NCBI GenBank assembly: GCA_013306675.1
Contig: JABLUY010000001.1
Span: 528,334 to 592,333, forward strand
Origin: Thraustochytrium sp. TN22
Taxonomy: Eukaryota; Sar; Bigyra; Thraustochytrida; Thraustochytriidae
Reading direction: 5' to 3'
Length of the DNA stretch: 64,000 bases
The stretch's first letter is position 1; each line of letters opens with the position of its first letter. The position numbers and the translations under genes were made by a program. Positions 1 through 57,299 of the stretch are shown here, piece after piece. Under the pieces are notes generated by a model. It saw only the letters and a list, made by a program, of their open reading frames with translations, ran no database searches and was not told where the DNA came from.

Positions 1-595
1 AGACGGTGCCGCCCGTGTAGGACTCGCCGCTGTCCGTCTCGGTGATGCTAAAGTGGACGCGGATGTGGACGTGCGTGACGCGCCCCTGGTACCACCCCGG
101 GAAGATGGTGTTCATGACTGCGGTGCCGCTCGAGTTGGTGTACTGGATACCGCGCAGAAAGGTCGTGTCATCCGTGGCAGAGCCCGTGTTGGTGCTCGCG
201 GCGATGAAGTGGCTGTAGATGCCGTTGGCGTCGCAGTGCCAGAACTCGATGGCGGCGCCCACGACCTCTTCGCAGTTGTTGGAGTTCACCACCGTCACCT
301 GCAGCTGCAGCGGCACGCCCTCCTTGTCCTCGATCATGTTGTCGCGAATGGGCGCCTCATCCCATACATACGGGCCGGCCGTCGTCTCTGCATCAAGCGG
401 GCAGGTGTCCAGCTCACGGCCCTTGGCCGCGCACGCCGCTGAAAGCTTGTTCGCATGCGCCAGCAGCCTGGCGGGCTCTGGCTTGTGCGCAGCCCAGTGG
501 CCCGCCGGGACCACGTGCGCCGTAGCCGGCTGCGTCGACGCCAGCACCAGGCCGGCCGCAGCCAGCAGCAGCGCCTGTGTCGCGCCGCGCGCCAT
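1..595 (-). CDS. Secreted intradiol ring-cleavage dioxygenase, copy 1 (3' part off the window)
   Basis: Partial gene: the reading frame is open from the ATG at 595 to the left edge, so about 198 codons are visible and the C-terminus is missing. Residues 1-26 form a signal peptide ending in ATA; the predicted mature protein begins HVVPAGHW. Family marks follow in order: a TxGPYVWDEAPIR block, FWHCDANGIYSHF (first Tyr iron ligand), FLRGI, then PGWYxGRVTHVHIRVHF (second Tyr and the HxH ligands). These four residues bind Fe(III) in catechol and protocatechuate dioxygenases, which open aromatic diols between the two hydroxyls. It is the downstream-most visible member of a five-gene same-strand array and is closest to copy 2 (both have CEEVVGAA). 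Role in the array is inferred: extracellular cleavage of catechol-like compounds. Substrate cannot be read from the sequence. Confidence 0.9.
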   Translation of the reverse strand, partial: MARGATQALLLAAAGLVLASTQPATAHVVPAGHWAAHKPEPARLLAHANKLSAACAAKGRELDTCPLDAETTAGPYVWDEAPIRDNMIEDKEGVPLQLQVTVVNSNNCEEVVGAAIEFWHCDANGIYSHFIAASTNTGSATDDTTFLRGIQYTNSSGTAVMNTIFPGWYQGRVTHVHIRVHFSITETDSGESYTGGTV

Positions 596-1049
596 TCTCG
601 CTTGCTCAGCTCTGTCGCGCTCTGTCGCGCTCTGTCCTGTCTTGAGGGGTTCTTGCGCAGCCTTGCGCACCAATTGCGTGCGTTCTGGCTTTGCTGGCGT
701 CGAGACCCCGCGGGTTGCCCGCTCCCGCAGCTAACCGCTCCTACCACCCCAGCGCCGCGGGCTGGCGGGCGAGGGACCGCGGCGCAGGCACTGACCAGGT
801 CACGTCAGAACCTGGTCGGAGTCCATGCCACTGCAGTGGAGGCTGCCAGCGGAGCCTCGCCACTGGCACTGCATGGAGCTGCAAGCACTGGCACTTGCCA
901 ATGAAGGCCAGGGCAAGGGCGTTGGACTCAGCGACTCGCGAGGCTGGGAACTTGGCAACGGATTCAGAGGAGGCGAAAGCACTGGCACGCGCTGGCTGGC
1001 TGACTGGGTGCTTTTCTTTTCTTTGCTAACTACGCAGGTACTTTACCTT
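596..1049. other. Intergenic spacer between dioxygenase copies 1 and 2
   Basis: No supported gene. This is the 5' flank of copy 1 and the 3' flank of copy 2. It contains several copies of the octamer CACTGGCA or its complement (near 860, 886-892 and 980), a motif that also appears in the copy 2 upstream flank. Whether it is regulatory is unknown. Confidence 0.5.
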
Positions 1050-2024
1050 TTACATAAACGGCGTCTCGAGGAGGAGGAGGAGGGCTACGAGCGCCGCAAC
1101 GAGCACGGTGATGGGCTCTAGGGCAGCGGCAGCAGCAGGGGCCGCGGTGGGATTGATGGTGGTGGGCGTTGCCTCGCTCGCAGGCGTCGGCGCCGTCGCA
1201 GTTGGGCCCGCTGTGGCCGTGTAGGAGGAGGGCGGGTCGATGCTCACGACAACGTAGGCGATGACGCCGGCAGCGAAGCCCTGCTCAGGGTACATCGGGA
1301 CGGTGGTGGTCAGGCCATACTCGCCGCCCTGCTCGTTCCAAACCTTGTCGGAGGCGAGCGAGGTCATGGACGCCGTGTTGTCCTGGTACGCTTCGGTCTC
1401 GGCGATGGTGTCGATGAGGTCGTCGTCGAAGAAGAGCTGGCCCACGTGCGAGACCGTGCCGCCCGTATACGACTCGCCGCCGCTCGTCTCGGTGATGCTG
1501 AAGTGAACGCGCACGTGAATGTGCGTCACACGACCCTCGTACCAGCCGGGGAAAATGCTGCTCATGACGGCCGTGCCGGTCGAATTGGTGTACGAGATGC
1601 CGCGCAAAAAGGTGGAGTCGTCCGTGGCGGACCCGGTGCCCTGGCTCGAGGCGACAAAGTGGCTGTAGATGCCGGTCGCATCGCAGTGCCAGAACTCCAC
1701 CGCCGCGCCCACCACCTCCTCGCACGTGTTGGAGTCCACCACGGTCAGCTGCACCTGAAGGGGCACGCCAAGCTTGTCCTCCGTCATGTCGGAGCGGATG
1801 GGCGCCTCGTCCCAGACGTACGGCCCTGCCGTCGTTTCGCCGTCAAGCGGGCACCCCGCCAGCGTGCGGCCCTTGGCCGCGCACGCCGCCGAGAGCTTGC
1901 GCGCGTGTGCCTGCACGCGCGCCGCGTTCGGTTGGCTCGCCGTCCAGTGGCCGGCGGGCACGTCATGCGCCGCGGCAAAGGCAGCCGCCGCCAGCACCAG
2001 CATCGGCACCATCCCCGTCTTCAT
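1050..2024 (-). CDS. Secreted intradiol ring-cleavage dioxygenase, copy 2
   Basis: 324 residues from the ATG at 2024; the open frame extends further upstream, but this start gives a clean signal peptide (residues 1-19, ending AAA). The mature protein would begin HDVPAGHW (His20, His26). Iron ligands expected for the family are Tyr120 (in FWHCDATGIY), Tyr162 (PGWY), His168 and His170 (HIH). After about residue 270 comes a Thr/Ala/Pro-rich linker (TATAPTPASEATPTT) and then a hydrophobic C-terminal tail of about 20 residues ending LLLLLETPFM, the pattern of a GPI-anchor signal. So it is probably a cell-surface, O-glycosylated aromatic-ring-opening enzyme. Neighbours on both sides are paralogues on the same strand. 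The GPI call is inference; a single C-terminal membrane anchor is the alternative. Confidence 0.92.
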   Translation of the reverse strand: MKTGMVPMLVLAAAAFAAAHDVPAGHWTASQPNAARVQAHARKLSAACAAKGRTLAGCPLDGETTAGPYVWDEAPIRSDMTEDKLGVPLQVQLTVVDSNTCEEVVGAAVEFWHCDATGIYSHFVASSQGTGSATDDSTFLRGISYTNSTGTAVMSSIFPGWYEGRVTHIHVRVHFSITETSGGESYTGGTVSHVGQLFFDDDLIDTIAETEAYQDNTASMTSLASDKVWNEQGGEYGLTTTVPMYPEQGFAAGVIAYVVVSIDPPSSYTATAGPTATAPTPASEATPTTINPTAAPAAAAALEPITVLVAALVALLLLLETPFM

Positions 2025-2629
2025 CGTGCCCGCACTCGCGTTCTTGGTTTGTTGGGTCCTGACTCTGATGACTGCCAGTGATGACGAGAGAGTGGAAGTG
2101 GGCGCACGCCTGCCTTCGAGGTGGCCCCGGGCCGCCCTCACTGCAGGCGCCGGCTTGCAGAAGAAAATGCTACCGCCGTCAACCACTCCGACCTGGACAC
2201 GCTCTCTGCCTGCCAGTGGCCCAGTGGCCCGGCCCCCCACTACGGGCGCCTGCACTAACGTTACGCGCTGGAACCGGTACAGCAGCGGCATTGCTTGACT
2301 CGTACAAGGCAGCTATTACGAGCACGAGGCAGGCAGCGGCGAGCTCGTCGCGACGGGCCCTGTCGGCCTCGACGTGCTTTGCACAGCTGGAGCGGGACTC
2401 TCCCCGTTGTGGGCGAGGAGGGAGCTTGTGGGCATGGCGCCGCGGAGTCCGAGCGCATCGAATCAAGACGGCCGATCAAGACAGCTCTAGTCTTGGAACG
2501 AGCGAGAGAGATGCGAACGAACGAGCGAAAGGGATGCGAATGAGAGACTTCGTGGCAGGTCTGTCTCGCTTTTTTCCAAGCAGATGGCCAGAAGCTAGAC
2601 ATGGACAGCAGATTAAACTACCCTAAGAT
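2025..2629. other. Intergenic spacer between dioxygenase copies 2 and 3
   Basis: I see no gene. Probable promoter of copy 2 and terminator of copy 3. It holds CTGCCAGTG-type elements near 2072 and 2210-2230, the reverse complement of the CACTGGCA motif seen in the spacer downstream of copy 2. A weakly AT-richer stretch surrounds 2600-2640. Confidence 0.4.
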
Positions 2630-3730
2630 CTACATCATCAGCCCAAGCGCCAGAGCGGCAACAAGCGCAAGGCTCGCATGCAGCGCCGTGCCGCTAGAAG
2701 GGGCCTTGGTGGGCAACATGGTCGGGGCCAAGGTTGAGTTGTCGTCCACGAGGTCGGGCGGAGCGCCACCGTCGCCGCCAGGGCCGCCAGTAAAGTTGCC
2801 GTCCGGGCCGCCAGGACCACCGGTAAAGTCGCCGCCGTCTCCGCCAGTGAAGTTGCCATCGCCACCCATGCCACCGCCGCCGGCGCCGCCGCCCATGCCG
2901 CTGTCGTCGGTGGACTCCGCCTCGAGCGTGTCGGTGCCAACCACGACATAGGCGATGACGCCAGACAGGTTGCCGAGACCAGGGTACATCTCCACGGTAT
3001 TGGTGAGGCCGTAGCTGCCGCCCTGGCCTACGAAGTGGGTGTCTTCGTCCAGGGGCGTCATCTCTACGGTGTTGTTCTCGTAAGCCTTGGCCTCAGCGAT
3101 CTCGTGCACGAGGTCCTCATCAAAGAAGAGCTGGCCGACGTGCGAGACGTAGCCGCCCTCGTACGAGAGGCCGCCCTCGGTGACGGTGATACCAAAGTGG
3201 ACGCGAATGTGCACGTGCGTGACGCGCTCGGCGTACCAGCCGGGGAAGATCGTGTTCATGACCGCGGTGCCGGTGGCGTTGGTGTACGAAATGCCGCGCA
3301 AGAAGGTCTCCTCGTCGTTCTCGTTGCCCGTGCCCATGCTGGATGCGATGAAGTGCGAGTAGATGCCGTTCGCGTCGCAGTGCCAAAACTCCACAGCCAC
3401 ATCCTGAAGCTCCTCGCAGTTGGTCGAGTTGATGACGGTAACCTGGATCTGCAGCGGCACACCGTCCTTGTACTCGGTCATGTTCTCACGGATGGGCGCC
3501 TCGTCCCAGACGTACGGGCCCTCCGTCACCTCCGGGTCAAGCGGGCACGCCTCATCCAGCGTGCGGCCCTTGGCGGCGCACGCCTCCGACAGCCTGCGCG
3601 AATGCGCCAGCATGCGGCCCGCATGCGGCTTCCGTGCCGCCCAGTGGTTGGCCGGCACATCATGCGCCGAGGCCACGCCAACCAGCGCTGCCACCGCGAC
3701 GATGCTTGTCAGCATTCTCCCGAAGCCCAT
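2630..3730 (-). CDS. Secreted intradiol ring-cleavage dioxygenase, copy 3 (Gly/NFT-rich tail)
   Basis: 366 residues. Signal peptide is residues 1-22 (ends ASA); the mature start is HDVPANHW (His23, His29). Iron ligands expected from the family are Tyr124 (NGIYSHF), Tyr166 (PGWY), His172 and His174 (HVHIRVHF). Cysteines lie in SEACAAKG, ACPLD, NCEE and WHCD, enough for two disulphides. After the catalytic domain (to about residue 265) there is a glycine-rich tail with repeated NFTGG units, each an N-glycosylation sequon, then a hydrophobic end (LALVAALALGLMM) typical of a GPI signal. It sits alone between the copy 1/2 pair and the copy 4/5 pair and is intermediate to them. Known family reaction is intradiol cleavage of a catechol; the actual substrate is unknown. 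Confidence 0.93.
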   Translation of the reverse strand: MGFGRMLTSIVAVAALVGVASAHDVPANHWAARKPHAGRMLAHSRRLSEACAAKGRTLDEACPLDPEVTEGPYVWDEAPIRENMTEYKDGVPLQIQVTVINSTNCEELQDVAVEFWHCDANGIYSHFIASSMGTGNENDEETFLRGISYTNATGTAVMNTIFPGWYAERVTHVHIRVHFGITVTEGGLSYEGGYVSHVGQLFFDEDLVHEIAEAKAYENNTVEMTPLDEDTHFVGQGGSYGLTNTVEMYPGLGNLSGVIAYVVVGTDTLEAESTDDSGMGGGAGGGGMGGDGNFTGGDGGDFTGGPGGPDGNFTGGPGGDGGAPPDLVDDNSTLAPTMLPTKAPSSGTALHASLALVAALALGLMM

Positions 3731-4758
3731 CCTGCTGGCTGCTGCTTGGATCGAACAAAGTTCACAAGGCAGGCTTTTGTCCTCCCAGAAGCCTCTTCTT
3801 GGCGGGCCTCGAGCTTGGTTCAGGTTCTGCCCGGACGGCGCAGCATCACGGCAGGAGCCGCGAGGAGCGGCCCGCGCGTTCTACTAGCTAGCTGGCTCTA
3901 GCTCCTCTACTAGAGTAGGAAGCTGGCCACTAGCTGTCTATCCGCCTATCCGCCAGAGCGTGGCGCCGGCCGCCTATACCACTCCAACCCCGCCGTTTCT
4001 TGCCAGCCTCTCCGCACCGCAGGCTGGCCAACTGGCTGGCCAGCTGGCTGGTCGGCTGCAAGGGGAGCGATTCTTGACGATGGTCGCAGCTTCCAGGCCT
4101 GCACGCGATTCGGCGCGGGGCGGCGCGGGCAGCGCGCAGCGCGCGCAATGGAGGCTCGACTCCGACCTGAGAGAATGTGCGAGGCGGCTCAGAGCGCCCC
4201 CGAGTGGCCTAACAGTGTCACCCGGTCACCGACTCACCGTACTAGTAGAGTCTACGCCAAAAGGAACGGCCCGGGATGGTGAGGACCGACTCGGACTCGG
4301 AGTCGGAGTCGGAGTCGGAGGCGTCGAGGAGGCGCGAGGAGCGTTGACTGTGAGGTCAAACAGTGCAGTGCCGAGGGGGAGCGGCGTTCACCGTGATGCA
4401 AGCAAGCTCGAACGGTTTGAGACTCACTTGAGGGGAAGGTCAGGTTGGACGGCCGGAGTCGGGACGCCTCCGAGTCGCCACGCCCAGGCTGCCACTGGCA
4501 GGTGTCTCGCGGGGAAAACGGTCCTGATCGCCGGGTGGTACCATGGATACTTTACGTGTCAGCGAGCCTGAGCAAAGTAACAAAAAGTCAAAAAGCGCAA
4601 GGTGGACGGTTGCTTGCTCCGACTCGGACGACTCCGCGGTGATTCTGGTGAGTCGCAAACGACAAGGGTCGGGCCGGACAACTTGAAGAAGGCTGCAAGT
4701 GCTACAAGTGACCAGACGACTCAGAGAATATGTGTTTTCATTCATTGCGACGTGACTA
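3731..4758. other. Intergenic spacer between dioxygenase copies 3 and 4
   Basis: No gene supported; open frames here lack protein-like composition. Features: a GCTA-rich patch at 3884-3905 about 150 bp upstream of the copy 3 ATG, a CTGGC repeat at about 4022-4052, and a run of GAGTCG hexamers at 4281-4321. The same hexamer repeat forms the divergent FKBP/tRNase Z promoter at 21018-21070. Confidence 0.4.
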
Positions 4759-5826
4759 CTACAGCGCCATGACGGCCAGAAGCGCAGCAAGAGCGCAGCT
4801 GGCTGACAGCGAAACGGCGCTCGAAGGCGCCTTGGTCGGCCAAAAGGTCGGGCTCTCGGTCGAGGAGCCGTTCGCGGAGGACGAAGGCGAACCAGGAAAA
4901 CCGCTGCCACCCGTGTTGGGCGGTGGCGTGCTCCCATCGCCGCCAAAGCTACCACCACCGGTACCAGGGCCAGTAGAGCCACTGCCGCTGCCGGTAGACC
5001 CGCCGCTAGAGCTGCTGTCCGTCTCGACCGTATCCGTGCCGACAACCACGTAGGCGACGATGCCGGACAGGTTGCCCATGCCCGGGTACATCTCCTGGGT
5101 GCTGCAGAGGCCGTAGTCACCGTCTTGGCCGGTGAAGACGGTGTCCTCGTCGAGCGGGGTCATGGTGTTGGAGTTGTCCGCGTAGGCATCGTCCTCGGCG
5201 AGCTCCTGCACGAGCGAGTCCGGGAAGAAGAGCTGTCCCACGTGCGAAACCGTGCCGCCCGTGTAGGATTCGCCATCGTCGGCCGCCGTGATGTTGAAGT
5301 GGACGCGGATGTGAATGTGTGTCACGCGGCCGTTGTACCAGCCCGGGAAGACTGAGTTCATCACCGCAGTGCCGGACGAGTTTGTGTACGAGATGCCGCG
5401 CAGAAAGGTTGAGTTGTCGTTGTCCGTGCCGAGGTTCAGGCTCTCCTCGATGAAGTGAGAGTACACGCCGAGGGCGTCGCAGTGCCAGAATTCCACCGCA
5501 GCGCCCTCGATTTCCTCGCAAGTCGTCGAGTTCACCACTGTCACCTGGAGCTGCAGCGGCACGCCGTCCTTGAACTCCGTCATGTTGTCCCGGATCGGGG
5601 CCTCGTCCCACACGTACGGGCCTTCCGTCACCTCCGGGTCGAGCGGGCAGGCCTCATCCAGCGTGCGGCCCTTCGCGGCGCACGCCTCTGAAAGCCTGCG
5701 CGCATGCGCGCCAACGCGAGCGGCGTCAGGCACCTGGGCCGCCCAATGGTCCGAGGGCACGTTGTGTGCCGAGGCCGCCGCCACGGCCGCTGCCACTACC
5801 GCAGCCGCCATCAGTGAGCGCGCCAT
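4759..5826 (-). CDS. Secreted intradiol ring-cleavage dioxygenase, copy 4
   Basis: 355 residues from the ATG at 5826; the frame continues upstream, but MARSLMAAAVV is an obvious signal peptide start and the upstream translation looks non-coding. Cleavage after ASA (residue 20) exposes HNVPSDHW (His21, His27), identical to copy 5. Predicted ligands: Tyr122 (ALGVYSHF), Tyr164 (PGWY), His170, His172 (HIHIRVHF). The C-terminal linker is Ser/Gly-rich with a short GSGSTGPG pattern, then a hydrophobic tail ending LAALLAVMAL, again GPI-like. It has one cysteine more than its relatives, in GLCSTQEMYP, where copies 2, 3 and 5 have Thr. Same strand and same order of domains as its neighbours. Confidence 0.92.
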   Translation of the reverse strand: MARSLMAAAVVAAAVAAASAHNVPSDHWAAQVPDAARVGAHARRLSEACAAKGRTLDEACPLDPEVTEGPYVWDEAPIRDNMTEFKDGVPLQLQVTVVNSTTCEEIEGAAVEFWHCDALGVYSHFIEESLNLGTDNDNSTFLRGISYTNSSGTAVMNSVFPGWYNGRVTHIHIRVHFNITAADDGESYTGGTVSHVGQLFFPDSLVQELAEDDAYADNSNTMTPLDEDTVFTGQDGDYGLCSTQEMYPGMGNLSGIVAYVVVGTDTVETDSSSSGGSTGSGSGSTGPGTGGGSFGGDGSTPPPNTGGSGFPGSPSSSANGSSTESPTFWPTKAPSSAVSLSASCALAALLAVMAL

Positions 5827-6961
5827 CTTGGCCTTTGTTGTTTTTCTTGCGACCACGGCAAATCTTGAGGGTCCTTCGAGGTCTTGTGGATTTGCTCGTG
5901 GCATGGCGCCCGCCCCGGCCGTGGCCTGGCGATCACTCCAACCTGCTCGGCGGCTTGCTCGCAGGCGCGCCTGCGTTGCCGCGCTCGACTCGCCGACCCG
6001 ACCGAGACCGAGCCCGCAAACCAGGCCTTGCTGGGGTACCGCGGGGTTCAGCTGCCCTGCGGCATCGCGCGGCATCCGCGATTCCGCGGCGCCAGGCACG
6101 CAGTTCATGTTGTCACGCACTCGCTCCGACCCAACTGACTCTCAGCCCGCAACTTGGGTCAAGTTGAACCGTCACAGTGGGAAGCGCCGCCGGGCCACCA
6201 CTCACTCAGGCTGTCAGTGACCACTAACAATAACAGCCACTGATCAGTCTGTGACATGTGAGCTCAGCGTTCTCGACCCGCGAGCTCAGGCTCCGAGCCC
6301 AGGGACCGGACAGCTTGGCAACTGCATCCTTCAAAGGCGCTGCCGCAGCCGGGCCGCTGCAGGCTGTTGAATCGAGCTCCCCAAAAAGGCAGGTGACACG
6401 ACTTTTGATGTGGAATCACATTTGCCACCGGAGAGCCGCCGGCTTCCGTACTGGGCAGCATGCGAGATGATACAGCATCGCGTGGCCTTTGGGAGTGACA
6501 GGCGCCTGCCTGCCTGCCTGCCTGCCTGCATTGTAGTAGTGAATGCGTCACAGATACCCTTGTGCGACTCTGGGCATGGCGCTGTTGTGGGCCGCTGCGG
6601 GGGGGGGGGGGGCGGAAGGGCGAAATGCACCAAGACGCGCAATACCAAAAGTCCCAGCTCTGACGCAGGTAGACAGTATCCTTTTGCGGGCGGAAGCTGG
6701 ACCGACTATGCAAGTGCGAGACACAGGTACGCAAAGGCCGTCATGCGCACGGAACGGAACGGAATGGATCGCCGCGCGAAAGTGTCGCGGAACACGCACG
6801 ATGATGCGCAAACAGGCAGGCTTGACAAGACTGTGGAGAGTTCATAATTCGGATTTGCAACCATCGGCGCGAGAGACAAGCGGAACTCGCACGCCGACCG
6901 ACACGCAGAGAGGCAGGCTTGACAAGACTTTGAAGATTTCGAGATTCCTATGCTAATCAAC
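5827..6961. other. Intergenic spacer between dioxygenase copies 4 and 5
   Basis: No gene supported. It contains a (TGCC)n tract at 6505-6529, a run of 13 or so G at about 6600-6612, and the putative promoter of copy 4. The segment 6620-6960 is richer in A and has a repeated phrase AGGCAGGCTTGACAAGACT (at about 6813 and 6911). Confidence 0.4.
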
Positions 6962-8011
6962 TCAGAACGCGATGGCGATCAGCGCGACCGCAAGAGCGCA
7001 GCCAACGGGCAGCACAGCGCCGCTCGAGGGCGCCTTGGTCGGCCAGAAGGTCGGGCTTTGCGTGGAGTCGCCAGGCTGGCTACTGCCGTCGGGCGCGCCG
7101 CCGTCCGTGAAGTTCCCGCCCATGTCACCGGGCCCGCTGCCGCCAGTAAAATTGCCACCGCCAGTGCCCGTAGGTGAGGTGCCGGGCACCGCGGCGCCGT
7201 TGCTGTCGACGGACTCCATGTCAGTGCCGACGACGATGTAGGCAATGACGCCGGAGAGGTTGCCCTCGCCCGGGTACATTTCTGCGGTGGTTGTTAGACC
7301 ATAGCTGTCGCCCCCGAGATAGATTGTATCCTCGTTGAGCGGCGTCATCGTGGCGGTGTTGTTCTCGTAAGCCTCGTCCTGAGCGAGCTCCTGGACGAGC
7401 GAATCCTCAAAGTAAAGCTGGCCCACGTGTGTGATCGTGCCGCCCGTGTACCCCTCACCGCCGTCGACCTCTGTGATGTTGAAGTGCACGCGAATGTGCA
7501 CGTGTGTGGTGCGGCCGTCGTACCAGCCAGGGAAGATGGTATCCATGACGGCAGTGCCGGATGAGTTCGTGTATTGAATGCCTCGCAGAAAGGTGGAGTT
7601 GTCGTTCTCGTTGCCAGTGCCGGTGATCTCCTCGATGAAGTGGCTGTAAAGGCCGACGGCATCGGCGTGCCAGAACTCAATGGCGGCACCCTCGATCTCC
7701 TCGCACGTGTTTGAGTTCACCAAGGTCACCTGCAGCTGCAGCGGCACGCCCTGCTTGAACTCAGTCATGTTCGCGCGGATTGGCGCCTCGTCCCAGACGT
7801 AGGGGCCGGCGGTCTCCTCCGGGTCAAGTGGGCAGGCATCGTCCAGCATGCGACCCTTCGCTGCGCAGGCTGCCGACAGCTTGCGAGCGTGCGCCTGCAT
7901 GCGGGCCACGTCCGGCACCTTTGCCGCCCAGTGGTCCGAAGGCACATTGTGTGCTGTGGCCGAGGCCACCGTGGCCACGGCCGACATGAGTGCCAGCGCG
8001 AAGCGGGTCAT
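6962..8011 (-). CDS. Secreted intradiol ring-cleavage dioxygenase, copy 5
   Basis: 349 residues. Signal peptide 1-20 (ends ATA), mature start HNVPSDHW (His21, His27). Family ligands: Tyr122 (VGLYSHF), Tyr164 (PGWY), His170 and His172 (HVHIRVHF). It reads WHADA where the other four read WHCDA, so it loses one of the shared cysteines; the partner cysteine in NTCEE remains. Tail: glycine-rich with NFTGG and NFTDGG sequons, then a hydrophobic end (LPVGCALAVALIAIAF) consistent with a GPI signal. It is the first gene of the array in the direction of transcription. A (TGCC)n tract lies about 100 bp upstream of the ATG. Closest relative is copy 4 (shared EIEGAA and HNVPSDHW). Confidence 0.92.
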   Translation of the reverse strand: MTRFALALMSAVATVASATAHNVPSDHWAAKVPDVARMQAHARKLSAACAAKGRMLDDACPLDPEETAGPYVWDEAPIRANMTEFKQGVPLQLQVTLVNSNTCEEIEGAAIEFWHADAVGLYSHFIEEITGTGNENDNSTFLRGIQYTNSSGTAVMDTIFPGWYDGRTTHVHIRVHFNITEVDGGEGYTGGTITHVGQLYFEDSLVQELAQDEAYENNTATMTPLNEDTIYLGGDSYGLTTTAEMYPGEGNLSGVIAYIVVGTDMESVDSNGAAVPGTSPTGTGGGNFTGGSGPGDMGGNFTDGGAPDGSSQPGDSTQSPTFWPTKAPSSGAVLPVGCALAVALIAIAF

Positions 8012-9089: not shown

Positions 9090-10943
9090 TCAGTTGGGCG
9101 CAAGACTGTGATTGGCAGGGGTTAAAAGTGCCTCCTGCGCGGAGGCGAGATTGTTGATGCAGTCGGGGCGGCCGCGGCCTCGTGCGTGCAGCTCACGGTG
9201 CTGGGCCTCGGCTAGACGAAAGTGCGAAAAGAGGCCCTGGATGCAGGAGGCGAACTCGAGGTCCAGCTTGATGGAGTCGAAGCCGCCGCCCACGAAGCAG
9301 TCCTCAAGGATGCGCTGCGAATTGATGAGGCCATGCAAGACGGTAAAGACGAAGACGGCCAGCATCGCGGCGTAGGCGTAGGTGGTGCGGTCGTCCGGCT
9401 CGGCCTGGATGGAAGCGACCCAGCCAAAGTACGGCCAGATGATCCAAGGCATGATGAAGATGTAGACACGGCCGAAGGATCGGATGCTCTGCGGCGTGCG
9501 GTAGGTCTTGGAAACGCGCAGCTCCTCCACGCGCTGCTGGTGGTACCAGTGGTACTGGTGCAAGCGCGAGGCCTCGCCAGCCGGAAAGCCGGCGACCTTC
9601 ATGACCTCGGCGTGGCGAGCCATCTGCGCGAAGAGCGCGTTGAGGTCCTTGACGAGCTCGTTCTGGAGCGCATGCACGCGCTTGGTCTCCTTGCGGTAAT
9701 TGGGAAAGATCTGGTGCCGCCCGTGGCCCACCGTCGGCATAGAAAGAAACTTGTACACGAGCTGCGCCAGCTGGATGTGGTCCTCCAGCACACGCTTGTT
9801 GAAGCCTGCTGGCAGCAGGCAGCGTCCGTTCAGCCGCTGCGGCGTCTCCGGGTGCGGCCACTCCCACGTGAGCGTAGCCAGGCAGCTCTGCATGACGAGC
9901 GCGCGAAAGTCCGCCAGCCGCAGCAGGGCTGTCTCGCGACGCGTGTAGGCCAGCGTGATGGCCGAGGACAGCGGGAAGATGACGGCGAAGCCCAGAAAGC
10001 TAAAGTCCAGCTTCACCGCCAGCGCTGTGTCAATGTCCTCCATGTACACGAGCATGCCGTAGGTCGCCACGAAGGCGTTGACCACCACCAGCAGTGTGTC
10101 CCAGGTGGCTGTGTGACGCGCGTAAATGGCCAGCGACGCCAGCATGTCCACCAGCGCTAGGCGCAAGCAGTCGTACGCCATGCCGCACATACCGCGACGC
10201 GCAGCGCGCTCGGACTGGGCTTCTGCTTCCTCGTTCACCAGATACCGCGCACACTCCTCCAGACTCGGCACCTCCACGGTCGCCGGCGTCAGCTCAGCCC
10301 ACTCGATCTCCGTCGCCGCGCCCATGCGGCGCGAGGAGTTCTGCAGAAACTCCGGCCCTCGCCCCGAGCTTGCGTCCTTCTTGTGGTCCCGCTTATGCGC
10401 GGCGCCGCTACTACTTTCTCCGCTTCGCGCCTCTTGCGGCGCCTCCGCCGGGCGCAGCTGCCGTAGTTCCTGCGCATGCTTCTCGTCGTACTCGCGTCCG
10501 TGGCTGCTGCGGCTGTGATTGCGGCTGCGGCTACCGCGCGCGTGGCCGTGCGCCTGCACGCGGGCGTGGGCGTGCCCGTGCGGGTGCGAGTGCGCGTGCC
10601 TCCCGGAGCTCTGGCTGGCCCTGGACCCAGGCGACCGGGCGCCATCGCTGCTCGTGCCGGTCGTCGAGACCGCTGCCGACGTGTGCAGCGTGGACAGGCT
10701 CCTGCGCAGTGCGTCGTTGATGGCCCTGGCGTGCAGGTGGTCCTCCTCCTCCTCCTCCTCCGTCGAGCTCCCGGCCTCGCGCGTGTGCGCGTCGCCCCCC
10801 TGAAGCACGCTCGCCTCCGTCGTGTCCGAGTCGGCGTCCGCGCTCACCACCACCTCGACCTCGGAACCGTCCTTGGCCTCGGCGCGCGCCTGCAGCAACT
10901 CCCCGCCGTCCTGCGCCTCCGCCTCCGCCTCCGCCTTGGCCAT
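9090..10943 (-). CDS. Bestrophin-like anion channel family protein
   Basis: 617 residues from the ATG at 10943, which has a good context (GCCGCCATGGCC); the open frame reaches 11057 only through a GTG. The N-terminal ~230 residues are disordered: acidic, a poly-Glu run, and a His-rich stretch (HAHSHPHGHAHARVQAHGHA). From about residue 265 come membrane segments (WDTLLVVVNAFVATYGMLVY; FLGFAVIFPLSSAITLAYTRR), then a soluble helical region, a second pair of hydrophobic segments (YIFIMPWIIWPYFGWVASI; YAAMLAVFVFTVLHGLI), and FVGGGFDSIKLDLEF. This order matches the bestrophin/UPF0187 family, where the last motif corresponds to the PFxxxGxDDI region. Predicted role: pentameric chloride or bicarbonate channel. 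The assignment rests on architecture and motif likeness, not on a search. Confidence 0.6.
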   Translation of the reverse strand: MAKAEAEAEAQDGGELLQARAEAKDGSEVEVVVSADADSDTTEASVLQGGDAHTREAGSSTEEEEEEDHLHARAINDALRRSLSTLHTSAAVSTTGTSSDGARSPGSRASQSSGRHAHSHPHGHAHARVQAHGHARGSRSRNHSRSSHGREYDEKHAQELRQLRPAEAPQEARSGESSSGAAHKRDHKKDASSGRGPEFLQNSSRRMGAATEIEWAELTPATVEVPSLEECARYLVNEEAEAQSERAARRGMCGMAYDCLRLALVDMLASLAIYARHTATWDTLLVVVNAFVATYGMLVYMEDIDTALAVKLDFSFLGFAVIFPLSSAITLAYTRRETALLRLADFRALVMQSCLATLTWEWPHPETPQRLNGRCLLPAGFNKRVLEDHIQLAQLVYKFLSMPTVGHGRHQIFPNYRKETKRVHALQNELVKDLNALFAQMARHAEVMKVAGFPAGEASRLHQYHWYHQQRVEELRVSKTYRTPQSIRSFGRVYIFIMPWIIWPYFGWVASIQAEPDDRTTYAYAAMLAVFVFTVLHGLINSQRILEDCFVGGGFDSIKLDLEFASCIQGLFSHFRLAEAQHRELHARGRGRPDCINNLASAQEALLTPANHSLAPN

Positions 10944-11992
10944 GGCGGCTGCCCTCTTTTCGCCTGCTCGCTCTCGCGCTCTCTGGCCGTTCAGATCCCC
11001 GTCCAGGTCCTCGTCCTCGTCCAAGTCCTCAGCCTCGGCCTCGCCGCGCACGTGCACGGCCGTGGCCTCGCTCGCTCGCTCGCTCAGCTCTCGCAGGCCA
11101 GCCTAGCTAGCCAAGCAACGCGCCTGCCTCGTCGGCCGGCCGGCCGGCGGCCCGCCGCCGCCTTGGCTCAGCGCCGCGCCGCCGCCGCCGCCGCCCGCCC
11201 GCCCGCGCGCGCGCGCCGGCGGCCACCGACTGCGGCTCTGCTGTTTGCTGCCGTACCAGTACCAGCGAAGTTTCCCATCCATCAGCTGGACCCGGCCCGA
11301 AGCGCAGCGCGCCCAACGCCAGGCTGCCTGCCTGCCAGGCTGCCTGCCTGCCAGGCTGCCTGCCTGCCAGGCTGCCTGCCGGCGGGCTCGCGCGGCTCGA
11401 AGCGGCCTCCAGCGCGCTGGCAGGAGGCCCCAAGCTCATTGCGCCCTGCGCTCGGGCTCGACTCCGCCGCCGCTCTGAGGCACGGAGTCGCCGACTCGGA
11501 GCAGTCTGAGCAGACCGCGCCACCCCACGAGGACGAAGTTAGTACTAGTACGCCAGCGTGCGCCAGCGACCACGACTCGAGCCCATCCACTTGAACCAGG
11601 CCCAGATCGTTCACCTTGGCTCGTCGCGAGACCCGGAGCCGCGCGCCCAGACCGCGCCGCGAGCTCGCGCCGCGCGAGCTCGAAGCGAGACGTGGACTCG
11701 GACGCGCCGGCGCTGCCGGTCATCGCTCTAGTTAGCTAGCTACAGTAGCAGGGGGCGCGGGCCATCCCCGGGGACGGCGGCCAGGGCGCCCACCGGTGCG
11801 CGCGCACACCGGTGTGCGGTAACGCGGGGAGCGGGCGGGCGGTGGCGCGGCGCGAGGCGGGGTTAGGGTAGCCGGCGTGCGGCGCGCGCGGGCGGCGGCG
11901 CATCGCTGGCGGCGGCGGAGGCCGCGGCGGAGACAGACCTGTTTGCGGAGGAGAGCACAGCGTACGAGCCCGTCGCGCAGCAGCTCGAGACC
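10944..11992. other. Divergent intergenic region between bestrophin-like and RPL7 genes
   Basis: No gene seen. It should hold both promoters. Notable: a GGCC-rich patch at 11136-11150; four-fold repeats of CTGCCTGCCAGG at 11324-11386; a perfect 13-bp palindrome GAGTCGCCGACTC at 11485-11497, whose opposite-strand version occurs at 55442-55454; and a GCTA patch at 11727-11738. Confidence 0.45.
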
Positions 11993-37388: not shown

Positions 37389-38473
37389 GCTGGCCGCCTG
37401 CCCGCCCGGCCGCCCGGCCGCCCCGGCCGCCCGCCCGGCGCGGCGCGGCCCGGCTCGAGCCGCCGCGCGCGCCCGCCGCCGCGCGCGAGCCCGCGCCGCC
37501 GCCGCCGCCCGAGCCGCCCGCCGCCGCCGCCGCCGCTGCCGCCGCCGCGCGCGGCGCGGTCCGCGCGCCGCGCGACAACGGGCCTCGCGTCGCGGCTCTG
37601 CCTGCACGCAGCGCAGCTGTTGTTGCGCAGAGCTGGCTGCGCTCGAGGGACAAGGACGCGGGCGAGGACCAGGGCGACGGGGAGGACGTGCACGCGGAGG
37701 AGGGCCAGGGGACGGAGGAGGACAGGACAAGGGGCGCGGCGAGGTGAGCGACGAAGGAGGACGGGGCGACCCATGCGAATGGCCAGGTGAAGGAAGAACA
37801 AAGACGAGAATGGAGACGTGGACGGAGATGGGCAAGGGAGGAGGAAGGGGTGGCGAGGAGAATGACGGCGCCAGCGCCGGAGGAAAAACGGAGGCTAGCG
37901 AGCAAGACCAAGAAAGGTCTCCCTTCGCGGCGTTGCTGCCTGGAATTGAAGGAAAGGGGATTGTGGCCTTCGTTGACGGCCTTTTGCTGCGTGGAAAAGA
38001 AGAAAAGGGGATTGATTGTAGCCTTCGTTGACGGCCTTTTGCTGCCTGGAAATGAAGGGAATGGTATTGTAGCCTTCGTTGACGGCCTTTTGCGGACAGA
38101 GGTCAAGTTCTTGGACTCGACTTGGAGCACAGCTCGATGGAGCATGGGATAAAGCCAACAAGATGAATGCATCAGCCACGAGCAAGCAAGAGTAGTAGCG
38201 CGAAGAGGACAAGAATGGGAGCAAAACGAAAAGGAGTTCGCTCCCTGGCCAAAGAAAGCTGCTGAGCAGCACGAAGAACAGAGCGTCCAACGCAAGGTCG
38301 TGGAAGAGGCAAACGGTGTCACACTCAAGCGCAGTCTGTAGACGGCAAGGTTGAGATCTCTCTAACAAATTTACTTAAGGTCAAGCCGAACGTAAAGGCC
38401 GTGGGAGGAATGAATGACAGGCAGGGCTGGCGAGGGCAGAAGCACTCTAAAGTGGCAGAACTCGCGCTCACAC
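37389..38473. other. Spacer upstream of longin-like gene, downstream of sterol glucosyltransferase
   Basis: 1085 bp with no gene. The first 240 bp is extremely GC-rich with GCCGCC repeats (5' UTR or promoter). It contains the 51-55-bp repeat block listed separately. The segment 38150-38400 resembles ordinary 3' flank. Confidence 0.5.
37966..38093. repeat. Three diverged copies of a 51-55-bp repeat
   Basis: The core GCCTTCGTTGACGGCCTTTT occurs at 37966, 38021 and 38072 with exact identity, separated by similar GCTGC..TGGAAA..GAA spacer sequence (period 55, then 51 bp). A fainter fourth spacer half precedes it at 37934. No coding sense. Confidence 0.85.
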
Positions 38474-40882
38474 TCAGGTGTGGCCGGATGTGGGGGCTGC
38501 GTTGGCGCTCGCGGTGTGGATAATGTCGGCGTCAGGGCGCGGCAGGTCGTCGTCCATGGCGGCGGAAGACTTGTCGTCCTCCGGCTCCTGTTGCTCCGCG
38601 CCAAAGTGGTGGCCGTCGCCCTGTGCCAAAGTGACGTCTCGAAGCGAGCTGTTCAAATCGTCATCCTCCGTGTAGGCGTCGCCGTCGCCGTCGTCGTGCA
38701 CATGGCGCCGCAGGTTGCTGTCGCTCATGGAGCTGCGGCGCATGACGGAGCGATGATCATCGGCAGTGGGCGTGCTTGGCGCTTTCGCGCTGTGGCTGCC
38801 GGTGCGGCGGCGGGCGCGCGGCGTGTGGACATGGATGGCGATCTTCCCCACGGCGCGCGAAACGCTGCTGTTGCGGCGGCGGTGCGAGCTGTTGCCACTG
38901 GCGGAGGACCCGCGCGAGCGCGAGCGCGAGTGCGAGCGCGAGCGCGAACGGCCGGAGTTGGCGGACGGCGCTCCGGGCGCCGCGAATGCCTCGGCAGCAG
39001 CGCGCTTAAAGGCCTCAACGTTGGCCTCGACGCCGTCGGACATGTTCTCAATGCCGCCAGGAAACATTTCGGCGGAGACCTCCTTGGCGCGACGGCGCCA
39101 GGATGAGCCGTCCTCGAGCGCCTTGGGAATAACGTCGAGGATTACGTCGTTGAAGTCGGAGATGTGCGAGGGCGGCGGGCCAACGCCGAGCGCCTGGATT
39201 CGCGTGCCCCAGAAGCGCTGGTCCAGCAGGAGCACGCCTGTGGCCATGCAGGGCACGCCTGCGGCGAGGGCCTCGCCCGTGGTGCCAAGGCCGCCGTGAA
39301 TGACGAGGAAGTCGAGTCGTGGGAAGAGCAGCGAGAAGGGCGCGCCGCTGACGATGAGCAGGCGGTCCTGCTCGGCGTACTTTTGCGCGCGAGCCTCCTG
39401 CGAGGAGTCCCTGGCCTCGTCGTCGGGGCGATTACCGACGAGCGCGATGATGCTGGGTTTGTACGGCCCCGGGCACTTGTCGAGGATGTGAAGCGCGGAC
39501 TGCAGGATCTTGATACGCGTCACGGGCATTGAGCTGAAGCAGATGCACATGAGCTGGTAGTTCTTTTTGCGCGCCCCCTGGATGAAGTCCTCCACCTCGT
39601 CCGAGAGGCTGGGCATGCCGGCGCCACGCAGAAAGATGAAGTCCGACATGTGCACGGACTCGGGCCAGTCCGGAGGCTTGCCGCCAAAAGCATCCTCCTT
39701 GATGGGCACGACAACCGGGAAGTGACGGTCCACAATGACTTCGAAGTCGTGCATGCCGTCAAAGTTGCGCGAGAGCCCGCGCCGCCGGTACATGTCGTCG
39801 AGGCGCGTGGTGAAGGGGTTGTTCTCCATCATGCGCTTGACAAAGGCGAAGGTGTCGTGACCCTCGAGGTCCGTCGGAGACGTCGGGCTCGTCGGGCTAG
39901 GCTGCATCTCGTTCATATCCTCGGCATCCAGCCTGCGCAACGGCGTGATGGGCGTGTACGCCTTGGACGGCAGCACGGTGGGCTGCAGGAAGAAGCCCAC
40001 CATGGGGATCTTGAGCGCCTCGCTGATGATAAAGGCCAGGTTCGCGGTCGTGAAAGTGTAGCACAGAAAGTCCGGCCGCAGGCGCTGTGCCCAGTAAAAG
40101 AAGGCTGGCTCCGAGTGAAAGTATTCGCGCTCCATGCGGCCCAGCATGGCGGCCTGCATGACGCGGAGCTTGGTGTTGACGGCCCACTTGGCGATGGGCT
40201 TGGAGATGCGCGCCTCGGTGTCGCCGCCGCTCGGCACGAAGTTTACGGAGCCCTGCCTGACCTCGCTGTACTTTTCGATGAGGGGCTTGTAGCGAATTTC
40301 GGTGCAGATGTACACGTCCCAGCCTTCGAGGTCCGCGAGGCCGCGGCCCAGCGCGATGAAGGGCTGCACGTCACCGCGCGTCCCGCGCGTCAGCACCAGC
40401 AGGCGCCGCGGCCCCGTCACGCTGCGCGGACGCGCGTCCTCTACGTCGGCGTCTGTCTTGAGCGGCTCCTCGAAGGTCTGCAGAATGCCTGTGCTGGCGC
40501 CGCGCGACAGGCCGGCCGGCAGCGTCGAGGCCTCGTCGTCCGCCTCGTACGCGCGGTCTGGGGGTGCCGTGGCGTCAATGCCGGCACCCTTGTCGTCCTC
40601 CTTGACATCGCTCTTGGTGTCCGAGCCCGCGGGAGCGACCCCCACGGCGTCACCCTCGCCCTCGCCCTCCCTCTCCTCCTCCTCGTCGTCCGAGTCAGCC
40701 AAAATGGTGCGCTCCGAGCCTGTGGCCACGGAGGAATGATCCTCCTCGTCGTCAGGGGGGGCGTCCGCATCGCCCGTCTTGACGCCCGCGCTCTGGCGGG
40801 CCGCAGGGCTTTGCTCGAGCTGCGCCAAATCGCTTCCTTCGCTGGAGGTCGCTGGTCCGCGCATACCGCTGCTGGCGCCTTT

Positions 40883-40913
<31 letters not shown>

Positions 40914-41827
40914 TCGTCGTTGGCGCCCTCCGACTCCTCCTCAATATCGCCTTGCCGCACACGGCGCACCTCGTCCTCAATGGCGTTGGGCTGGCTGCCG
41001 GCCGTGGCGCCCTGCGAGGCGTTCAGATTGCCGACGGAGAGCGCAAAGTTGCCGGTGAGCATCGCGTGCGAGCGGCTGCGCTGCTCGGACTGGATCCCGC
41101 GGATACAGACCGTCGTCGGGTGCTCCAGCTTGCGGTCGAAGACGCCGACGCCGACGCTGGAGAAGAGCCAGAGCTCTGGCATGCTGGAGCGGCGGCTCAG
41201 GTCCTGCACCGAGATGAGCGTGCGGCCGATCTTTGTGCGTGCCGTCTCGATGAGCGTGGCGCGATAGAGACTGATCTTGATGACATCCGTGACGATGGCG
41301 TTCTCCACGACCACGCGCAAGTTGACCTTGTGCTTGCCGGAGGTGCTGTACGAGACCTTGCTGTCGATCTTGCCGCGGCGGCGGTGGCCCTCGGCGTCAT
41401 AGACGCGGATGCGTACGAAGACGCCGTGGTGGCCCGTGAGGCGGCCGGCCTCGTCCATGGCGACATGGTTCACGCTCTCGATGACAAAGCTCAGCTCCAC
41501 GACCTCGGACGCGTTCACGTCCGTGTCGAACTCATAGCGGATGCGCTTCTCCGTGCATGAGGTCTTGCGGAACTCCTCGCGCTCCTCGGGCGTGGCGCCG
41601 TCCTCGCCGTCGCCCTCCTCGCCCTCGTCGTCGCTGGCCGCGTCCAGCAGCTCGCTGTCCGCTCCGGGCGACGTCGGGCCCTTGGTCACCTCCAGCGGCG
41701 CTGACACGGTGCCCTCGATCTTGGACTCCACCACCTCTGCGCCGGCCTCGCGCGGCGTCACCGGCGCCTCTCCGCGCGGCGCCGCCGCGGCCGCGGCCGC
41801 CGACTCCGTCGAGCAGCACGCGCCCAT
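38474..41827 (-). CDS. Sterol 3-beta-glucosyltransferase-like protein with acylated N-terminus and C2-like domain
   Basis: 1117 residues. It begins MGACCST, a classic N-myristoylation site with two adjacent cysteines for palmitoylation. Residues 95-260 look like a C2-type beta sandwich (VVELSFVIESVNHV, VFVRIRVYDAEG, LRVVVENAIVTDVIKISLYR). A disordered acidic part includes poly-Asp. The glycosyltransferase family 1 part starts near 474 with LLVLTRGTRGDVQPFIALG and includes DFLCYTFTTANLAF, MVGFFLQPT and, near 839, the nucleotide-sugar signature VIHGGLGTTGEALAAGVPCM ... DQRFWG. This is the sterol glucosyltransferase (UGT80/Atg26) type. The Ser/Arg-rich tail follows. Predicted action: UDP-glucose to sterol at a membrane face. 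Fungal Atg26 uses GRAM/PH domains for membrane targeting; here acylation and C2 seem to replace them. Confidence 0.88.
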
Positions 41828-55679: not shown

Positions 55680-57299
55680 TCAGGGCAGCTCGCAGAGGTC
55701 CGGCACGAGGCCGGCGAGCTCGGTCGAGTTGTAGGACAAGAGGCCGCTGGACGCCGACGGCTCGTAGGCGCCCTCGTCGAGCGGCACGTAGACCAGGATG
55801 ACGTCATCTTCGACCAGGGCCTCGGCCGCCAGTGCCTCGACACAGGCCTGCAGCGCCTCCGCAGTGGGCCGATCCCTTTTCTTGATGCCGTCGCAGAGCC
55901 TGGCGAGCGACTTGTCTGCCTTGCCGGACGAAAGGTGACCGCCGGTGAAGGCAACCACGACCTGGAGCGCCTCCTTGCGGGCGTCCTTCTTTTGCAGTTT
56001 GAGCCCTCCCTTGTAGGCCAGCGGCAGGTTAGACATCTCGTTGCCCTTGCACTTCTTCTGGACCATCCCGTCGATGGCCTTGTGGACCACCGTCAGGGAC
56101 TGGCTGTGCTTGAGACGGCGCGTAGCGCGTACCTTGCTGTCAAAGATGAGCGCGCCAACGCGGTCGCCGCCCTCGAAGTCGAATTCGGCGGCGAAGGCCT
56201 TGGCCTGGTTGGCCGCCGCGACGCAGTCTTCCTCGAACCCGCTCCCGTCGATGGCCAGGACCATATCAAAGACGCGACACTCGCTCGCGGCGGAAGGGAC
56301 GGGCGTGGGCGCCACGGTCGGGGAGGGTGCCGAGGTGGGCGAGCAGAACTCCGTGATGGTGCCCACGAGGTTCTGCTCTTCCGTGAAGGAAGGCTGCGGG
56401 CCGCAGAGCGGGTTGCTATCGAAGTAGGTGTTCGTGAGGGTGCTGAGGGTGGCCAGACTCTGCGGAATCGTCGTGATGAGGTTCGTGCTCACGTAGATTT
56501 CCTCCAAGCTCGTCAGATCGCCCAGGCCCTCGGGCAGGCTGCCAAGCTTGTTGTTCTTGGCGTACAGCCACTCCAGCTTCGCAAGCTCGGTGATGCTGTC
56601 AGGTAGGGTTTCCAAAAGGTTGGTGCTGACAACGAGCTCGCGCAGCGCCGTGCAGCCTGACATCGAGGAGGGCAGCTCCTGCAGCGAGTTCCAGCTCACG
56701 TCGAGCGCCTCCAGCTGCGTGAGCTCGCCCAGGCCGGAAGGCAGCGCGGTCAGCTCGTTGTAGTCCGCGAAGAGCGTGTTGAGGTTGCGCAGGTTGCTCA
56801 TGGTCTGCGGCAGGTCCGACAGGCTATTGCCGTGGAGATCCAGCTCCGCGAGCTCGGTGAGCGCGCCAAAGCCCTCCGGGAGACTCTCCAGGCTGAGCTT
56901 TTGCAGAGACACATAGGTAAGCTTGGTCAGCTTCGAGATGCTCGATGGCAGTGCGGTCAGCTGCGGCGTCTTCTCGATAATCAGCTCGCGAAGGTTGGTG
57001 AGCTTGTCCAGTCGGTCCGGCACCGCTCTGCGCGCTGAGCTGCCATAGTAGGCCTCGGTCCACTCCAGGGTGAGAACCTTGGCCGGGTCCAGCCCACTGC
57101 GGCCGCCAACCTTGGGCATGGCCCCGTATCGGCAGTACACATTCACCGCCTCGCTCGGCTTGAGCGCGCCGCCCTCCCAATTCTCATCATAGTACTTGCA
57201 GAAGCCCTGCGCGGGCTGCCACGCCGCAGCGACACACGCCACGACCAGGAGCGCCTCCGCCGCCCTCCTGCTGCTCCTGCTGCCGTCGCGGCGCGCCAT
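55680..57299 (-). CDS. Secreted leucine-rich-repeat protein with VWA-like domain
   Basis: 539 residues from the ATG at 57299. Signal peptide about 1-32 (LLVVACVAAAWQPAQG). A Cys-containing cap (FCKYYDENW, VYCRYGAMPK) precedes about ten leucine-rich repeats (residues 85-320) of the LxxLPxxxxxLxxL type (LTALPSSISKLTKLTYV; LQELPSSMSGCTALRELV; LGSLPEGLGDLTSL). A Cys cap (NPLCGPQPSF ... EFCSPT) closes the array. A Pro/Thr linker (SAPSPTVAPTPVPSA) leads to a VWA-like domain (about 355-535): FDMVLAIDGSG, GDRVGALIFDS, VVVAFTGGHLSSG. The MIDAS reads DGSGF rather than DxSxS and TGG rather than TDG, so metal binding is doubtful. Probably an extracellular recognition or adhesion protein. No membrane anchor at the C-terminus. 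Confidence 0.88.
   Translation of the reverse strand: MARRDGSRSSRRAAEALLVVACVAAAWQPAQGFCKYYDENWEGGALKPSEAVNVYCRYGAMPKVGGRSGLDPAKVLTLEWTEAYYGSSARRAVPDRLDKLTNLRELIIEKTPQLTALPSSISKLTKLTYVSLQKLSLESLPEGFGALTELAELDLHGNSLSDLPQTMSNLRNLNTLFADYNELTALPSGLGELTQLEALDVSWNSLQELPSSMSGCTALRELVVSTNLLETLPDSITELAKLEWLYAKNNKLGSLPEGLGDLTSLEEIYVSTNLITTIPQSLATLSTLTNTYFDSNPLCGPQPSFTEEQNLVGTITEFCSPTSAPSPTVAPTPVPSAASECRVFDMVLAIDGSGFEEDCVAAANQAKAFAAEFDFEGGDRVGALIFDSKVRATRRLKHSQSLTVVHKAIDGMVQKKCKGNEMSNLPLAYKGGLKLQKKDARKEALQVVVAFTGGHLSSGKADKSLARLCDGIKKRDRPTAEALQACVEALAAEALVEDDVILVYVPLDEGAYEPSASSGLLSYNSTELAGLVPDLCELP

Follow-up and report, generated by a model that had tools for sequence, protein, structure and literature searches.

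Five tandem genes for exported-type intradiol dioxygenases with predicted GPI-type tails in a thraustochytrid genome

Secreted intradiol dioxygenases have been described in several groups of eukaryotes, in papers that are cited here from excerpts. In the spider mite Tetranychus urticae, 17 secreted copies with broad activity on plant phenolics were reported and a detoxification role was proposed, with the genes argued to come from fungi and some of the copies expressed at the embryo stage, apart from feeding (PMC9167512). The enzyme CDO4 of the fungal family Ceratocystidaceae has a signal peptide cut at ASA-HP; the listed genera have one copy or none, and in two species the gene is duplicated on separate scaffolds (PMC8896014). 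An “extracellular dioxygenase” was noted in the fungi Moniliophthora and Monilinia (PMC3948071, PMC5987419). In Nitzschia putrida, a diatom without photosynthesis, intradiol dioxygenases also rank within the ten secreted families of highest enrichment, and the authors propose the use of complex carbon for this secreted set (PMC9054022). Five species of Phytophthora have 5, 3, 7, 3, and 5 genes in orthogroup OG0000363 (PMC6168125, table in the RxLR section). Here, we analysed a window of 64,000 nucleotides (C111:528334–592333) from the 37.9 Mb assembly of Thraustochytrium sp. TN22, GC-rich and with eukaryotic gene content, whose left end holds five genes of the family PF00775, IDO1 to IDO5, all of them on the minus strand. 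Their sequences support exported and apparently active products. On balance, we consider it probable that they encode five exported and active intradiol dioxygenases that depend on Fe(III), arose by tandem duplication, are probably held on the outer surface by glycosylphosphatidylinositol (GPI), and would disarm external polyphenols.

All five proteins scored above the curated cut-off of PF00775 (29.1 to 33.8 bits for the full proteins versus 27.3), and two tyrosine and two histidine ligands, the catalytic arginine, and a glutamine are present in every copy, with roles that we take to be those of their counterparts in catechol 1,2- and protocatechuate 3,4-dioxygenases. The same six residues were invariant over 29 aligned rows, made up of four window copies together with 25 sequences from the set of 80 bacterial relatives described below. 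A cysteine common to the other four copies is replaced only in IDO5 (Table 1). Pfam scans (E-values up to 0.01 and 0.001) gave PF00775 alone in the five proteins, with no sign of PF04444, presumably the N-terminal dimerisation domain of the classical cytoplasmic catechol 1,2-dioxygenase, and what precedes the catalytic domain is the putative signal peptide plus about 50 residues. Modelling predicted a beta-sandwich for the catalytic domain of IDO5, with a fold match for this one domain that leaves the catalytic reading standing; a first prediction with four paralogues as input (predicted local distance difference test score, pLDDT, of 38.8) led nowhere. Among solved structures, the chains of the spider-mite enzyme and of Streptomyces SACTE_2871, which we take to be exported, outrank every listed catechol 1,2- and protocatechuate 3,4-dioxygenase, so within this set the IDO proteins are nearer to the exported enzymes than to the cytoplasmic ones. 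The best match among these solved structures, by sequence and by structure, is the spider-mite enzyme (PDB 5vg2, 6bdj). Chance open reading frames (ORFs) were ruled out by the profile, fold, and selection evidence taken together.

Regarding export, the five proteins have a hydrophobic N-terminus (best 12-residue mean of 2.2 to 2.65) followed by A-x-A/H, with the slash marking the presumed cut, a pattern that was judged by hydropathy and by eye and that points to an export signal in each of them. All five mature proteins would start with H-x-V-P-x-x-H-W after the A-x-A cut, about 20 to 26 codons in. The start codons were inferred from these signal peptides, and the frames of IDO2 and IDO4 stay open further upstream. 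At the other end, a hydrophobic C-terminus (best 12-residue mean of 2.66 to 3.40) is found in the five copies, preceded by small-residue candidates for cleavage and by a Ser/Thr/Gly/Pro linker. As controls, none of the 80 bacterial relatives showed a C-terminal mean above 2, and none of 10 neighbouring proteins one above 1.4. When the IDO4 tail was used as a query, only IDO4, IDO5, and IDO3 were matched and no other protein, in a search insensitive enough to miss the tails of IDO1 and IDO2. In addition, the genes for the GPI transamidase subunits PIG-T and GAA1 are present in the genome, and each IDO protein has from 1 to 8 N-glycosylation sequons. The tails behind their cleavage candidates, with this machinery at hand, appear to be of the GPI type, IDO2 being the least typical. 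Because the scoring took in only hydropathy and the small-residue candidates, the surface tether is a plausible prediction from the sequence. In the excerpts that our literature search returned, no link of GPI to an intradiol dioxygenase turned up, and nothing relevant was returned by a search aimed at thraustochytrids or labyrinthulomycetes.

The genes are separated by gaps of 454, 605, 1028, and 1135 bp in the order from IDO1 to IDO5, each of them being a single open frame with a GC content at third codon positions of 0.81 to 0.88, and the full-length identity among the proteins is 57–69%. A profile search of the assembly found no other PF00775 gene (five matches among six candidates, all of them IDO1 to IDO5), and a protein query recovered the same five genes plus one weak piece (E 0.06). 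This weak piece, next to IDO1 on its downstream side, belongs to a stretch of about 118 bases that is split over two frames and interrupted by stops, and that matched IDO4 with a combined E-value of 2e-7 in a tblastn search of only the ~31 kb around the array. The stretch is a probable remnant of a sixth copy, so that the array is likely to have counted six or more genes in the past. An earlier note on this window had described five same-strand paralogues spaced 0.4 to 1.1 kb apart, all with the four iron ligands and a signal peptide and, in the four complete copies, a hydrophobic GPI-type tail. This observation is correct and slightly understated: the tail is found in IDO1 too once this gene is completed, and the count of copies left of the window, proposed there as a check, gave the rest of IDO1 and the probable broken sixth copy.

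Table 1. Intradiol dioxygenase genes of the array and the adjacent probable remnant (plain numbers are positions in the window).
Feature	Position	Strand	Description
IDO1, intradiol dioxygenase gene	1..595, start 595, 370 bp further left (C111:527963-528928; L006:8964-9929)	-	321 aa in full
IDO2	1050..2024	-	324 aa; putative signal peptide AAA/H, catalytic domain, S/T/P linker, hydrophobic tail ending -ETPFM; CEEVVGAA
IDO3	2630..3730	-	366 aa; linker rich in Gly, in which NFTGG is repeated; hydrophobic tail
IDO4	4759..5826	-	355 aa; predicted mature start HNVPSDHW; PTFWPTKAPSS ahead of tail
IDO5	6962..8011	-	349 aa; predicted mature start HNVPSDHW; HADA in place of HCDA; model made of the catalytic domain
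Sixth intradiol dioxygenase gene, probable remnant	L006:8609-8726 (C111:527608-527725), left of window		Between IDO1 and a GFO/IDH oxidoreductase gene

Synonymous divergence (dS, 0.73 to 1.04) exceeds nonsynonymous divergence (dN, 0.175 to 0.275) in all 10 IDO pairs; thus, the five copies look constrained and their duplications not recent. In a tree whose outgroups were 12 of the 80 bacterial loci and a single mite fragment, the latter on a long branch that makes its placement unsafe, the five IDO copies form one clade (100/99), inside which IDO3, IDO4, and IDO5 group together (97/99), with IDO3 and IDO4 nested as a pair (92/91) and IDO1 and IDO2 not joined. Expansion in tandem, as had been proposed, is supported by the sequence, and the proposed pairing of IDO1 with IDO2 and of IDO4 with IDO5 stands in part: the shared motifs CEEVVGAA and HNVPSDHW are there and core identity is highest in these pairs (74.6% and 75.0%, respectively), but the tree favours IDO3 with IDO4 and has no pair of IDO1 and IDO2.

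Two peptide patterns were used to search the genomes of bacteria and archaea for relatives, a scan that misses relatives lacking the patterns and that yielded 315 of them, the best 80 of which were kept; in an earlier scan using the window copies alone, none of 26 stretches had been confirmed. Most of the kept relatives (75 of 80) are named Streptomyces, and their identity over the domain is 43–48% in 79 cases and 37% in the other one. By a motif rule, a twin-arginine-like motif precedes the domain in 77 of the 80, compared with 9% after shuffling those N-termini; a stricter first pass had found it in 64 of the 65 loci read, and the N-terminus of one of the 80 loci was masked. Extracellular location and multiple copies had been presented as a departure from textbook enzymes, which does not hold for this subfamily in view of these bacterial relatives, the secreted forms of mites, fungi, and the diatom, and the multi-gene Phytophthora orthogroup. 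Relatives of the array are not all intracellular, close ones being exported, and “extracellular” is the normal condition within the secreted intradiol dioxygenase subfamily. Exported, multi-copy intradiol dioxygenases are thus already known, and the less familiar feature is the apparent tether to the cell surface. Bacterial contamination was considered for the array and ruled out by the eukaryotic flanking genes (PRMT5, a NatC subunit, and AFG1), the Sec-type signals, the tails unlike those of the bacterial relatives, and the single clade of the five copies.

In the reading that we favour, the signal peptide would direct each IDO protein to the secretory pathway, with cleavage at Ala-x-Ala/His, and the C-terminal hydrophobic stretch would probably be replaced by a GPI anchor, with a Ser/Thr/Gly/Pro stalk ahead of it. 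The surface enzyme would use O2 to split catechol-type rings between their hydroxyls into muconate-type acids, with caffeate, chlorogenate, flavanols, and tannin and humic fragments as candidate substrates, and polyphenols met on plant debris would thereby be disarmed, either as detoxification or as pretreatment. The earlier note had suggested an extracellular, surface-tethered family with a role in handling external catechols or polyphenols; the export-type N-termini of the five copies favour the first part, the tails and the presence of PIG-T and GAA1 make the tether plausible, and the role is the best reading we can infer, next to rivals in nutrition and in the processing of the cell’s own catechols. 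More tentatively, and with a lesser chance of being right, the organism may have no intracellular intradiol dioxygenase and the tandem set, GPI-tethered over its surface, may act as a fixed shield on the outside, where polyphenols would have their rings opened on contact and the acids would stay, a surface counterpart of the gut shield proposed for mites, reached through a gained GPI signal. Several points weigh against a GPI-held polyphenol defence. The tail of IDO2 contains a glutamate and ends in -ETPFM, and the hydrophobic C-termini may be non-cleaved membrane anchors instead of GPI signals. Moreover, the missing standard downstream pathway is a weak point, one that rests on a single Pfam family in an assembly that may be incomplete and that has two PF10282 loci: PF02426, muconolactone isomerase, was not found in the genome, and those two loci of the lactonase family make a lactonase step possible.

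The same genes bear on the alternative that the enzymes, freely secreted or C-terminally membrane-anchored, serve nutrition, with the opened rings taken up and burned via a beta-ketoadipate-like route. We regard this as rather unlikely, even if secretion-type N-termini in all five copies, the two PF10282 loci, and the complex-carbon use suggested for the secreted set of Nitzschia putrida (PMC9054022) are in its favour. Among the 20 flanking ORFs scanned, 10 of them without a Pfam match, no catabolic gene cluster was recognised; with no flanking aromatic-pathway gene, no further PF00775 gene, and no PF02426, the standard intracellular catabolic pathway was therefore not seen. Growth on catechol as a carbon source normally requires cytoplasmic enzymes too. 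Less probable still is an action on catechols of the cell’s own surface or wall (cross-links of the 3,4-dihydroxyphenylalanine type, siderophore-like or melanin precursors) during wall maturation or adhesion. The surface tether predicted for the five copies and the embryonic expression of some mite copies, away from feeding (PMC9167512), would fit it, and catechols could be made by two tyrosinase-domain genes (L097, C123:13080–13691, and L098, C225:10779–11336, in frames of 1083 and 1035 aa); nevertheless, by eye, neither tyrosinase ORF has a signal-peptide start, tyrosinases being the catechol-making enzymes covered by the search, and the substrates of the mite relatives studied are plant phenolics. 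Also by eye, the tyrosinase domain in these two frames looks fused to a C2-like front, a peptidoglycan-binding-like stretch, and a terminal metalloprotease motif HExGHxLGL. Finally, we find it very improbable that catalysis has been lost in some or all of the copies, with the proteins retained at the surface to bind catechols: pockets for metal and substrate may persist for binding and the activity of the IDO proteins is a prediction, but the six catalytic residues are kept in all five copies and in the 25 bacterial relatives aligned.

Other genes were observed in the window and beyond. A 655-aa ORF adjoining IDO5 (9090–11057, minus strand) looks by eye like a bestrophin-type channel, with no Pfam match at E 0.01, and a predicted protein with leucine-rich repeats, a VWA domain, and a hydrophobic N-terminus is encoded at 55680–57299 (minus strand). 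Elsewhere in the genome, a 3044-aa PfaA-type polyketide ORF (C124:26703–35603) has as neighbour a 2083-aa ORF on the opposite strand (38227–41142), an arrangement that, we assume, resembles the thraustochytrid polyunsaturated fatty acid synthase locus.

Exported-type intradiol dioxygenases, which spider mites, a diatom, fungi, Phytophthora, and Streptomyces possess, are with this array seen in a heterotrophic protist as well. Provided that the GPI tether is real, opening rings at the surface might help such osmotrophs to live on litter rich in tannin and lignin, and the GPI-type tail deserves a test.

Compared with the exported actinobacterial enzymes, the IDO proteins share an export-type N-terminus and, with those inspected, a Ser/Pro/Gly-rich tail behind the domain, whereas the bacterial signal is twin-arginine-like and not Sec-type and the hydrophobic tail is present in none of the 80; Streptomyces SACTE_2871 (PDB 4ilt/4ilv) differs in its fused carbohydrate-binding module, according to the title of 4ilv. 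The spider-mite DOG/TuIDRCD enzymes are likewise secreted and multi-copy, with the same catalytic domain, but belong to another group of organisms, and no GPI-type tail is mentioned in the excerpts. The fungal, oomycete, and diatom relatives are likened here by description only and are not part of the alignment. Among them, CDO4 has the mature N-terminal histidine after A-x-A seen in the five IDO proteins but no tandem array is described for it in the excerpted text (PMC8896014). The secreted set of Nitzschia putrida was defined by a signal peptide without a transmembrane domain, and the “putatively secreted” set of Phytophthora left out predicted membrane anchors, neither excerpt describing a GPI-type form. 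Both sets are multi-copy, as is the array, and both belong to stramenopiles, the same broad lineage as its thraustochytrid host.
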